Assembly (NCBI RefSeq): GCF_015773195.1
Contig: NZ_JADWYK010000002.1
Location: 248,001-312,000 of the forward strand
DNA: 64,000 nucleotides
Origin: Hymenobacter guriensis
Lineage (GTDB): Bacteria > Bacteroidota > Bacteroidia > Cytophagales > Hymenobacteraceae
Direction: 5' to 3'
Part shown: piece by piece, positions 7,265-59,870 of the stretch
Layout: each line of letters opens with the position of its first letter
How positions within the stretch are numbered: the stretch's first letter is position 1
Position numbers and translations under genes: made by a program
The notes under the pieces: generated by a model
The model's input: the letters and a program-made list of their open reading frames with translations, nothing else
What the model was told of the DNA's origin: nothing
The model's database searches: none

Positions 7265-8728
7265 GTGGCTTGTTCTTCTTGTTCCTCTGGTGGAGGCTGC
7301 TCTACAACTGCCCAGGGCTGCGGCTCCAAAGGCAGCTGTAGCACGGGTGGCTGCAACCGCCTCAATGTATTCGACTGGCTGCAGGACCTCGATCTGCCCA
7401 GTGATTTTAAAGGCTTCAACCTCGTGGAAATCCGCTTTAAAGGCGGCCGCAAGGAATTCTTTCGCAACGAGCAGCACCTGCCCCTCGTCACCGGCGACGC
7501 CGTGGTGGTGGAAGCAGCCGGCAACGGCTGGCACCTCGGCCACGTGTCCCTGAAGGGCGAGCTGGTGCGCCTGCAGATGCGGAAGAAGAAAGTGCCGACC
7601 GACTCCAAGGAAATCCGCCCGATTCTGCGCGTGGCCACTCCCCAGGATGTGGAACGCTGGGAAGCCGTGCGCGACCTGGAAACCGGCACCATGTTCCGGG
7701 CCCGCTCGGTAGTGGATGAGCTGCGCCTGAAAATGAAGCTTTCCGACGTGGAGTATCAGGCCGACCGCAGCCGCGCCACGTTCTTCTACTCCGCCGACGA
7801 CCGGGTGGACTTCCGGGACCTGATCAAGCGCCTGGCTGAGGAGTTTCGGGTTCGGGTAGAGATGCGCCAGATTTCCCTGCGCCACGAGGCCGGCCGCTTG
7901 GGCGGTATTGGCTCCTGCGGGCGCGAGCTGTGCTGCTCTACTTGGCTCACCGAGTTTAAGAGCGTGAGCACCACTGCCGCCCGCTACCAGAACCTGAGCT
8001 TGAATCCGGCCAAGCTCTCGGGCCAGTGCGGGCGCCTCAAGTGCTGCCTCAACTATGAGCTCGACACCTACCTGGTAGCCCTCAAGGACATTCCGCAGGT
8101 GCAGCGCCCTTTGCAAACCGAGAAAGGCGAAGCCTTCCTGCAGAAGACTGACATTTTCAAGAAGAAGATGTGGTTTGCCTTCCGGGGCGACAACAACTGG
8201 GTGGTTCTGCCGACGGAGCGTGTGCGCGAAATCCTGGATATGAACAAGCGCGGCGAAAAGCCGGAGTCCCTGCTGCCCCCCATGCGTGAGGAAGAGCGTG
8301 AGCCCGAGGTTTCGGCAATTGTAGAAGGCAACCTCGACCGCCTCGACGACAAAATAAAAGCCGGTAAGCGCAGCAAGCGCAAAAAGAAGAAGGAGCCCGG
8401 GGCGGTTACGGCCTCCGTTGCGCCCCGCGAAACCGACGCGCCTGCGCGGAGTACGGTAGCAGCGCCGCCGGCTACGGCAACGCCCCGCGGCGCCGATGGC
8501 CGACCCCGCGGCGCCGCTGCCAAGCCTGCCAACCGCCGCCACCGTCCGCCCCGCCCCAGCGGCGACGGCACGGCTAAACCCGAGGGGCGCGGCCCGGAGC
8601 GCCCGGCCGGTGACGCCGGTGCCAGCGGCACTGCTGAGCCCCGCTCCGGTGCCGGCCGGGGTGGCCGCCGCGGGGGCCGCCGAAGCGGAGGTAGCGGTGC
8701 TGCCGGTTCAACGCCTTCTCAAGCCTGA
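7265..8728 (+). CDS. PSP1-domain protein (RicT/YaaT-like) with Cys-rich N-terminus and basic tail
   Basis: This 487-residue protein has a PSP1 C-terminal-type domain at about residues 40-270, including GSCGRELCCSTWL and SGQCGRLKCCLNYE, the conserved cysteines of the RicT/YaaT family. In Bacillus the RicT complex carries iron-sulfur clusters and affects RNA processing. The first 30 residues hold six cysteines (residues 3, 6, 12, 19, 25 and 30) spaced by Gly/Ser. From about residue 360 the sequence becomes Lys/Arg/Ala/Pro/Gly-rich and looks disordered, possibly RNA-binding. The next gene, gldH, starts 7 bases after the stop, so they form an operon. The exact role in Bacteroidota is not known to me. 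Confidence 0.82.
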   Translation: MACSSCSSGGGCSTTAQGCGSKGSCSTGGCNRLNVFDWLQDLDLPSDFKGFNLVEIRFKGGRKEFFRNEQHLPLVTGDAVVVEAAGNGWHLGHVSLKGELVRLQMRKKKVPTDSKEIRPILRVATPQDVERWEAVRDLETGTMFRARSVVDELRLKMKLSDVEYQADRSRATFFYSADDRVDFRDLIKRLAEEFRVRVEMRQISLRHEAGRLGGIGSCGRELCCSTWLTEFKSVSTTAARYQNLSLNPAKLSGQCGRLKCCLNYELDTYLVALKDIPQVQRPLQTEKGEAFLQKTDIFKKKMWFAFRGDNNWVVLPTERVREILDMNKRGEKPESLLPPMREEEREPEVSAIVEGNLDRLDDKIKAGKRSKRKKKKEPGAVTASVAPRETDAPARSTVAAPPATATPRGADGRPRGAAAKPANRRHRPPRPSGDGTAKPEGRGPERPAGDAGASGTAEPRSGAGRGGRRGGRRSGGSGAAGSTPSQA

Positions 8729-9395: not shown

Positions 9396-9587
9396 CTAGA
9401 TGCGCTCCACTTTCACGGCATTCAGGCCTTTTTTGCCATCAATGACCTCGAAAGCTACCCGGTCATTTTCCCGGATTTCATGTACTAGTCCGGTCTGGTG
9501 CACGAAGATTTCCTGCGCTTGCTCGTCGTCTATTATAAACCCGAAGCCCTTGGTTTCATTAAAGAATTTGACTTTGCCCGTTTTCAT
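9396..9587 (-). CDS. cold-shock domain protein (CspA family)
   Basis: This 63-residue single cold-shock domain begins MKTGKVKFFNETKGFGFI. It carries RNP1 (KGFGFI) and RNP2 (EIFVHQT), the aromatic nucleic-acid-binding motifs. Its length and ending (GLNAVKVERI) are typical of CspA-family RNA chaperones acting in the cytoplasm. It is monocistronic with its own terminator. The long leader upstream (9588 onward) is AT-richer, as often seen for cold-shock genes, but I cannot define a thermosensor there. Confidence 0.93.
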   Translation of the reverse strand: MKTGKVKFFNETKGFGFIIDDEQAQEIFVHQTGLVHEIRENDRVAFEVIDGKKGLNAVKVERI

Positions 9588-9862
9588 GCTGGGTACTTGG
9601 TTGTGGTAAAGGTTAAAAAGAGAAACAGATTACGGCGGTAAATCTACAGGTTATTCTGCGCATAGTGCAATAGGGGAATTACGCAATATTCAGCGTTTCC
9701 CGCCTTAGCAGAGCAGTATAGCGCTGAAGAGTAGTGCCCAAGCCAAAACTGCAGCAACAAGATGTTACACGCCATTCGGGCCGACAGATGTGGCCGGGGC
9801 TGAACAGCTTGCGTATAAAATCGGCGTTGCATCTTTCTTTTTCACGCCTAACCACCCACCTT

Positions 9863-11398
9863 ATGGACAATCAGCAAAAGAATCAGACCAACTCCCCTGG
9901 CACTTCCGCAACCACTTCCGATAGTAACTCCCCCACGGCACAAAACCCGGGCATAGGGGGCTCCAACAACCCGTCTGCCAGCCTCAATAACGTTGGTACC
10001 ACTTCCAGCCAGTCGCTGGCCTCTTCGGAGATGAGTGCCGGTCAGGGCGGCCTCGGCAACACGAGCCAGAGCACCCAGGCCAACAAAGAGGTGAAGCCTT
10101 CGGCGCTGAAGACTGACAGCAAAAAATCCAGTGGCAGCACCGGGAAAACCGGTGGCTCCGCTCCTACGGCCAAAAAATCAACCAGCGCAGCTTCTTCGGG
10201 CAGCGGCAAGAAGGCTTCTGACCAGAAAAGCCAGCCAGCCAGTCAGAACGACCAGCACAGCCGGCAGGACAACTATGGCGGCAACTTTGGCAACAGCATG
10301 GAAGGCAGCTACCAGGACCGTGACCGAGGTGAGAATATGAGCAGCGGTGCCGGTCGGGGCGAGTTTGGCACGCACGGCGTTGGCAACACCCAGGGCGGAT
10401 ACGGCAATCAGTACCGCGACAACGACTACAACCAGCACGACAACCGAAGCGGCTACTACGGCAGCAACCAGCCAGCCGGCGGCTACAGCACCCATCAGAA
10501 CTCCTACCGCGACTATGACGGGCGGGGCGACTACAGCCAGGGCGACCAGTACCGCGGTGGCAACGACTACGGCCGGAGCAACCAGGGCAACTATGGTGGC
10601 CCAAACAGCTGGGGCAACCAGCACCCCTCAAACAACTACGGCCAGCAGGGGCGCGGCTACCAAGACAACAACGGCCGCAATTCGGGCGGTAATATGTACA
10701 ACCGCGACAACCAGGGCAACTCCGGCCAGTACGGCAACCAACGCTACGATGACCAGCAGCGCTGGAACGAAAACAGCCGCTACCAAAACGACAACGGCTC
10801 CCGCGAAGGCCGTGACCGGGGCTACAGCAACGACTATGGCTCTTCTTCGATGGGCGGTAACCCCTATGGCCGCCGCGACCAGAACCAGTATGGATCCAAC
10901 CAGGGCTACGACCAGAATCGTGGCTCGCACGGCAGCCAGCAACGCAACCAAGACAACGACTACCGGCCTTCGCAGGGCCAGGATGGCCAGGGCCAGCGTG
11001 GTGGCATGAACAGCCAGCAGGACTACGGCCAGCAGGGCGGCTACTACCGCGACGAGAACAACCATTACAGTGGCCAGGGCGGCTACGGCGGCAACAGCCG
11101 CTCTGACCGCGACCAGTACGGCTCCCGCAGCGGCTACAATCAGGGTTCGGGCAACTATGGAGGCAACGCCCGCGAAGGATTCGGCTCCCGCGGTGGCTCC
11201 TACAACGACGAGTACACTTCCGGCAACGGTAATATGCGCGGCGGCTCCCCTTCCCGCGGTGACTACGACTCGCAGGATAGAAACCGGAACTACGGTGGCG
11301 ACCGGCGCGGCCAGTACCGTAACCAGGACAACGATTCTGATGACTATGGCCCCATGCCCCGCCGCAACCGCGGCCGCGACGAGGACGACCAGCGTTAA
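9863..11398 (+). CDS. low-complexity Gly/Asn/Gln/Tyr/Arg/Asp-rich disordered protein
   Basis: This is a 511-residue protein with almost no hydrophobic residues. Residues 1-120 are Ser/Thr/Asn/Gly/Lys-rich. From about residue 130 to the end it is built from irregular short blocks such as DNYGGN, GGYGNQYRDND and QDNDYRP, rich in G, N, Q, Y, R, S and D. There is no signal peptide, membrane segment or Cys. Its composition resembles prion-like RNA-binding or condensate-forming regions with Tyr/Arg stickers, but no folded domain is seen. The ATG at 9863 is preceded by a 275-base gap; the longer frame from 9734 has an implausible start. The antisense frame is an artefact of the biased codons. Function is unknown; stress or desiccation protection is one possibility. 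Confidence 0.8.
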   Translation: MDNQQKNQTNSPGTSATTSDSNSPTAQNPGIGGSNNPSASLNNVGTTSSQSLASSEMSAGQGGLGNTSQSTQANKEVKPSALKTDSKKSSGSTGKTGGSAPTAKKSTSAASSGSGKKASDQKSQPASQNDQHSRQDNYGGNFGNSMEGSYQDRDRGENMSSGAGRGEFGTHGVGNTQGGYGNQYRDNDYNQHDNRSGYYGSNQPAGGYSTHQNSYRDYDGRGDYSQGDQYRGGNDYGRSNQGNYGGPNSWGNQHPSNNYGQQGRGYQDNNGRNSGGNMYNRDNQGNSGQYGNQRYDDQQRWNENSRYQNDNGSREGRDRGYSNDYGSSSMGGNPYGRRDQNQYGSNQGYDQNRGSHGSQQRNQDNDYRPSQGQDGQGQRGGMNSQQDYGQQGGYYRDENNHYSGQGGYGGNSRSDRDQYGSRSGYNQGSGNYGGNAREGFGSRGGSYNDEYTSGNGNMRGGSPSRGDYDSQDRNRNYGGDRRGQYRNQDNDSDDYGPMPRRNRGRDEDDQR

Positions 11399-11416
11399 AC
11401 CATAGGTAATAGCCAT

Positions 11417-11451
11417 AAAAAAGCCTTCCCGCAGTGCAGGAAGGCTTTTTT
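11417..11451. terminator. bidirectional terminator
   Basis: A 13-bp stem (AAAAAAGCCTTCC with GGAAGGCTTTTTT) closes a 9-base loop between the disordered-protein gene and the convergent lipoprotein gene. It has A and T runs on both sides. Confidence 0.9.
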
Positions 11452-11503
11452 TATGCTTCATAACTTTCAAACCTGCCCGGAGTTGAGCGGCTACGGGTGC
11501 AGG

Positions 11504-59653: not shown

Positions 59654-59870
59654 AAATACCCCCGCCCGAACGCAAAACACTCCCGCCCAGATACGAAACA
59701 CTTCCGCCCGAACGCAAAACACCTCCGCCCGAACACAAAATACCTCCGTCTAAACACGAAACCCCTCCGCTCTAACATAAAACACCTGTGCCCGGATGCG
59801 TAACACCTGCGTCCAGAAGCGCAACACCTCCGCCCAAGTCGAAAACACTTCCGCCCGAATCCAAAACACG
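59654..59870. repeat. 21-bp tandem repeat array upstream of guaB
   Basis: About ten imperfect units of 21 bases follow the approximate consensus AAAACACCTCCGCCCGAAC plus two variable bases. Units differ at several positions, so the array is old or diverging. It occupies the gap between the SDR gene (ending its leader at 59503) and the guaB promoter, and all frames remain open because the period is seven codons. It is probably a non-coding minisatellite. The rest of 59503-60021 shows nothing else but the guaB promoter. Confidence 0.85.

Follow-up and report, generated by a model that had tools for sequence, protein, structure and literature searches.

The 511-residue reading frame studied here, which lies in a 64,000-nucleotide stretch of the Hymenobacter guriensis genome (the window), raises two questions: whether so hydrophilic a frame is a gene at all and, if so, whether its product is a eukaryote-type RNA-binding condensate protein, as the initial annotation had proposed. 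The frame runs from an ATG at 9863 to a stop codon ending at 11398 (Table 1). Comparison of the window with G003 showed 13, 10 and 42 changes at codon positions 1, 2 and 3, respectively, with the third position the most variable; 41 changes were synonymous and 24 non-synonymous over approximately 325 and 1208 sites, giving a dN/dS of 0.145, and the value against G093 was 0.18. Since homologues occur genus-wide, the changes are biased to third positions and dN/dS is low, the frame is, on the evidence of sequence comparison, a real gene under purifying selection. An antisense or artefactual frame was ruled out by the dN/dS values together with the homologues, and a GTG start (554 residues) is unlikely, as relatives start at the 9863 ATG in the alignment. 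The terminator that had been assigned to the gene was borne out by folding, and hairpins followed by T runs were also seen by eye downstream of the relatives' genes. A sigma-70 scan gave no site on the gene's strand; the same tool also failed to detect the terminator, the loop of which exceeds its limit. The Rfam search for structured RNA in the region gave three sub-threshold matches only. Elsewhere in the window, positions 59654-59869 hold an imperfect tandem repeat of period 63 (21-base sub-unit, 3.4 copies).

Table 1. Positions of the features discussed, numbered along the window.
Feature	Positions	Strand	Basis
PSP1-domain protein, conserved upstream neighbour, basis of the locus tree	7265..8728	+	Pfam PSP1 2e-29; synteny
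Cold-shock domain protein, divergent upstream neighbour	9396..9587	-	Pfam CSD 4.9e-17
GGCC in place of the relatives' -35-like AAC	9792..9795	+	-35 apparently lost or changed in window, G003 and G093
GCGTATA, -10-like box kept across the family	9811..9817	+	Invariant GCGTAT in relatives
Disordered low-complexity protein, 511 aa (gene of interest)	9863..11398	+	ORF, composition, dN/dS, AlphaFold2
Conserved block 1 (about residues 48-63, SSQSLASSEMSAGQGG)	10004..10051	+	Alignments
Conserved block 2 (about residues 138-185, YGGNFGNS ... RGEFG ... TQGGYGNQYR)	10274..10417	+	Alignments
Conserved block 3 (about residues 308-331, QNDNGS ... GYSNDYG)	10784..10855	+	Alignments
Conserved block 4 (about residues 432-511, GSRGGSYNDEY ... 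NYG ... DYG ... RRNRGRD)	11156..11395	+	Alignments
Intrinsic terminator	11414..11455	+	Fold -20.5 kcal/mol, z -6.15

The composition of the protein was as first described, nearly free of hydrophobic residues (ILVFMWC 4.3 %) and rich in Gly (18.8 %), Ser (13.5 %), Asn (12.5 %), Gln (10.6 %), Asp (8.6 %), Arg (8.4 %) and Tyr (7.8 %). Its 55 Lys and Arg residues balance 55 Asp and Glu residues exactly (net charge 0), and the charges are mixed more evenly than in all 300 shuffles. The statement that such a size and composition are unusual stood within the sample of its own genome (464 kb of 5.3 Mb, made up of the window and 20 further stretches of 20 kb each). Among the 383 non-overlapping ORFs of 100 residues or more in this sample the protein ranked first in hydrophilicity, the gene being read there from an upstream ATG (536 residues), and it was the sole one with less than 10 % hydrophobics among 224 ORFs of at least 250 residues. 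A prion-like, Q/N-rich composition was likewise recovered, with a maximum of 30 Gln and Asn per 80 residues, exactly at the cut-off of 30/80, and a PLAAC-style core score of 34. The proposed disorder check was carried out with AlphaFold2 on nine sequences, and gave the window protein a mean pLDDT of 39.6 with no residue at 70 or above. A Pfam search of the window protein with E values up to 1 returned no family.

A profile built from 38 relatives (A1) found the family in 127 of the 204 genomes of the bacterial family, comprising 119 of 120 Hymenobacter genomes (all except G096) and all eight genomes of one sister genus; four other genera of the bacterial family gave no match. In an order-wide sample a second profile (A2) matched 51 of 390 genomes, belonging to 2 of 129 genera, and the other 127 genera sampled gave no match. 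No fitting Pfam or NCBIfam family was found when the 38 members were searched against each: the sole weak Pfam match was to DUF4687 (E 0.056, one member), the LEA and dehydrin models of both collections were not matched, and neither were the Pfam models for CsbD and YtxH. Among the papers found on Hymenobacter together with intrinsic disorder or prions, no title or abstract opening concerned this family.

Two compositions were found among the first copies. The neutral, prion-like class comprised 14 of 119 Hymenobacter and 8 of 8 sister-genus proteins, with net charge from -4 to +5, Tyr 6-9 %, Arg 6-11 %, Gln plus Asn 16-26 % and Ala plus Pro 2-11 %. The remaining first copies (105/119 Hymenobacter), which we labelled acidic, had a median net charge of -29 (range -38 to -6), a median Ala plus Pro content of 21 % and Tyr of 2-6 %; both classes were assigned with automatic start placement, and some acidic rows are broken or cut by contig ends. 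Prion-like core scores of the same PLAAC style ranged from 22 to 44 in 24 neutral relatives and from 1 to 20 in 107 acidic rows. The conservation in relatives that had been raised at the outset was therefore found for the family but not for its prion-like composition, which at 22 of 127 first copies is not a family-wide trait. The standard deviation of net charge was 2.5 in 25 neutral proteins (three second copies included) versus approximately 10.8 expected for random signs, the sequences being related and not independent.

These values bear on whether the protein forms a condensate or gel, with the Tyr and Arg residues of the neutral class acting as stickers that drive phase separation, perhaps together with RNA, the cold-shock protein or a DEAD-box helicase. 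The Tyr, Arg and Gln plus Asn contents of the neutral class agree with such a role, as do the core scores of the window protein and its neutral relatives when set against those of the acidic rows. However, this composition is missing in 105 of 119 Hymenobacter first copies, no RNA-binding domain was found with Pfam, and the charges are well mixed and sum to about zero. Condensate formation is possible, but as the explanation of the gene we consider it rather unlikely. The likeness to eukaryotic RNA-binding condensate proteins drawn in the initial annotation was not sustained, given the missing Pfam domain, the zero net charge, an RGG count of four and the absence of the composition from most of the genus.

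The conserved features of the family are four blocks in fixed order (Table 1). In the 38-row alignment G179, D310, N311, Y325 and G326 were invariant, four of the five lying in block 3. A profile built from acidic proteins only (85 proteins) gave the window protein 203 bits (E 4e-61), whereas 300 shuffles reached a maximum of -57 and 300 block shuffles (15 residues) a maximum of 42.5; the eight sister-genus proteins scored 90-158. Because the acidic-only profile finds the window protein far above the shuffles, the ordered motifs have been kept through the change of filler, and likeness by composition only was ruled out by the same comparison. A protein of this design could be a scaffold or regulator whose motifs dock specific partners (proteins of RNA decay, the cell envelope or the stress response) and whose filler acts as a neutral linker. 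The persistence of motif order beyond the filler and the five invariant residues argue for a scaffold, but AlphaFold2 gave no confident structure for any motif and the neighbours vary between loci, and we regard this explanation as improbable. In four genomes (G010, G112, G113 and G130) a 78-residue frame holding the N-terminal block alone lies just 5' of the main copy, so that block 1 is split off or separately encoded there, and the promoter stands 337-341 nt 5' of the main copy.

The two compositions were placed on a tree of the neighbouring PSP1 protein. This was a quick tree of 78 rows (loci holding PSP1) with modest support and 32 of 72 inner branches open, on which both the outgroup and the clade of the window had the neutral state; the composition labels need at least five changes, and well supported branches require two of these.

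Upstream of the gene, GCGTAT was invariant in 14 of 14 aligned neutral rows including the window, in surroundings that drift, and it was present in 25 of 25 neutral-class upstream regions. Within 350 nt it occurred in 99 of 129 distinct upstream regions, versus approximately 0.076 expected per region. The extended form, AAC-N15..18-CGTA, is similar to a promoter of the ECF sigma type, such as that of sigma-W in B. subtilis. When the profile was used to place the starts, 112 of 127 first copies had this form no more than 120 nt before the start, and with cruder starts and a 300-nt range the count was 109 of 128; the stricter AAC-N15..18-CGTANA was found within 300 nt in 62 of 128, and letter shuffles averaged 2.4. 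Fifteen first copies lacked the site in the profile-placed count: L052 is without upstream DNA, L151 and L155 have no site within 350 nt, and five (L038, L090, L096, L101 and L133) have the site if another start is taken. Four more (L036, L141, L144 and L145) have it 337-341 nt upstream, and in three of these genomes a short frame of its own, ahead of the main copy, also encodes block 1. In the last three (the window, G003 and G093) GCC replaces AAC and the -10 box GCGTATA is kept.

The same promoter preceded genes of recognized stress families, whose Pfam names were taken from G000 proteins. Among the best 30 loci in each case, it was found before CsbD in 28 (150 nt; 40 of 41 genomes with a match), before a YtxH-CsbD fusion in 30 (200 nt; 41 of 41 genomes) and before DUF4142 in 27 (200 nt; 35 of 41 genomes), and letter shuffles of the YtxH-CsbD and DUF4142 upstream regions gave means of 1.2 and 1.4 of 30. 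Four control genes showed it rarely within 150 nt: the cold-shock gene in 2/94, PSP1 in 1/78, ORF 11504 in 1/54 and a presumably comEA-like gene in 5/60. GCGTAT alone, without AAC, preceded ORF 11504 in 16 of 54. Genome-wide, the exact promoter occurred 10 times versus 18 for the backward control in G000, 8 versus 10 in G093 and 4 versus 17 in G015; since there is no excess over this control, site counts alone do not define a regulon, and what counts as evidence is the identity of the genes that have the site before them.

In G000, AAC-N15..16-GCGTATA occurred 13 times, eight times on contig C1, and three of the other five sites precede YtxH-CsbD, CsbD and DUF4142; GAAC-N15..16-GCGTATA had no site in this genome. 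In G015 the exact reverse-strand form CTATACG-N16..17-GTT occurred four times, before DUF4142, YtxH-CsbD, a small disordered protein and the window-family gene. Other exact sites precede unrelated genes or none. The eight sites on G000 contig C1 (186,679 bp; L258, L259 and L260) are all on one strand and seven of them stand 24-46 nt before an ORF; this contig, which carries what we take to be a ParB-like gene, looks like a plasmid that may rely on this promoter or on a mimic of it. In G015 (L267:2102-2677) the stress promoter stands before two small disordered proteins of 101 and 80 residues, and a near-identical AAC...CGTATAG site at G000:C29:145425-145451 and G093:C1:4194795-4194821 precedes a gene that is a further regulon candidate.

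With the promoter in 112 of 127 first copies versus 1 to 5 of 54 to 94 in the four controls, the family appears, as judged from its upstream DNA, to belong to a general-stress regulon. However, the window's own copy does not have the full promoter: the -35 AAC is missing, and a GAAC that stands only 5 nt upstream of the -10 box is wrongly spaced. The window genome keeps AAC before CsbD, YtxH-CsbD and DUF4142. In the window clade the gene may be expressed weakly or under other control, or else may lie outside the regulon. A literature search found nothing that links CsbD with a sigma factor in Hymenobacter, or with a sigma factor and the general stress response in Bacteroidetes.

The adjoining cold-shock gene, which had been pointed out from the first, was confirmed by its Pfam domain; the ORF preceding it is presumably gldH. 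The divergent adjacency was found in 92 of 119 Hymenobacter and in 0 of 8 sister-genus genomes, which keep PSP1 and other flanking genes. The two genes would form one cold-response unit if this adjacency, so common in Hymenobacter, reflected shared function, but the absence from all eight sister-genus genomes in spite of their conserved flanks, and a stress-type promoter before the cold-shock gene in 2 of 94 cases, make such a unit very improbable. For these two reasons the link looks incidental, and the cold-shock neighbour is probably functionally unlinked to the disordered-protein gene. The promoter evidence fits the early suggestion of a response to drying or radiation better than it fits the cold-shock link.

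Among the 120 Hymenobacter genomes, seven (G013, G009, G069, G027, G016, G004 and G104) have a separate second copy, and a hidden neutral-type copy in every genome was thereby rejected. The three second copies measured (L027, L028 and L044) were all neutral in composition. All three of these loci (3/3), examined with 15 kb and so with enough flank, have a cold-shock gene nearby as well as a DEAD-box helicase whose tail is rich in Gly and Arg, and a divergent DUF2383 gene (named by Pfam from G009 proteins) adjoined the second copy in all four loci examined. The AAC/CGTA site was kept before three translocated second copies examined, and was found before the DUF2383 neighbour in none of three. 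The second copies near a cold-shock gene and a helicase keep the RNA-condensate idea alive; set against it are the sister genus, where no cold-shock adjacency was seen, and the rarity of the shared promoter before the cold-shock gene.

The explanation we favour, in which our confidence is about evenly balanced, is that the protein is a lineage-specific, hydrophilin-like stress or desiccation protectant of the general-stress regulon, and we hold this to be likelier than a eukaryote-like RNA-condensate protein. The hydrophilin thresholds of Gly > 6 % and GRAVY < -1, described in PMC4190154 as insufficient for a definition, were passed by the window protein (Gly 18.8 %, GRAVY -1.89), by the 24 neutral relatives (GRAVY -2.11 to -1.50) and by the 107 acidic rows, among which duplicate loci were counted (GRAVY from -1.62 to -1.03; Gly 12.8 % or more). 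The protectant is favoured because both composition classes pass these thresholds and because bacterial hydrophilins with a supporting role in desiccation tolerance are known (PMC13232832).

An alternative (ECF-type) sigma factor would turn the gene on together with the CsbD, YtxH and DUF4142 proteins, with water loss or a related stress as the putative trigger. CsbD and YtxH have stress roles, described mostly in Bacillus, and it is from such roles of the co-carrying families that we infer the trigger. The protein would then accumulate in the cytoplasm, where its order-conserved Tyr, Gly, Arg and Asp motifs could serve as weak contact points between stretches of very hydrophilic filler, and the chain may surround cellular components with a hydrated shield or a loose network while the cell dries and takes up water again. 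A protectant that acts by bulk composition would need no ordered motifs, and the motifs may point to specific partners. A more elaborate version, which we put forward only tentatively, is a stress-regulon protectant with a fixed motif skeleton whose filler has repeatedly switched in place between neutral prion-like and acidic Ala/Pro compositions, a natural experiment in retuning material properties (gel or condensate versus soluble shield).

Several known systems invite comparison. FUS has a Gly/Asn/Gln/Tyr/Arg-type composition, and the window protein resembles FUS-type RNA-binding proteins and the clostridial Rho prion domain in this composition and in having no predicted fold; unlike them it has no RNA-binding or enzymatic domain, its net charge is about zero, and the composition is not family-wide. 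With the general-stress proteins CsbD and YtxH the relatives share the AAC-N15..18-CGTA promoter, but the sequences are unrelated, with no Pfam match in 38 members. The likeness to LEA proteins and dehydrins is one of working principle only, a hydrophilic disordered chain with short conserved segments; no Pfam match was found in the 38 members, and inspection of the sequence by eye showed no K-segment, a dehydrin motif. A further parallel, by description, is with DtpA and DtpB of Acinetobacter baumannii, which are very hydrophilic, Gly-rich, disordered and stress-linked. The dtpA and dtpB genes are described in PMC13232832 as encoding hydrophilins that support desiccation tolerance. The window family differs in its 500-residue members, its own motif skeleton and its switch of filler composition, and its protective role is putative.

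Hymenobacter is repeatedly named in descriptions of sun- and drought-exposed solar-panel communities (PMC7533311, PMC4932501). The family bears on the question of what evolution preserves in a disordered protein: one orthologous locus holds prion-like and acidic versions of one skeleton, so that composition and motifs would be separable in tests. The candidate stress regulon has a promoter defined by sequence, and its sigma factor can be sought.
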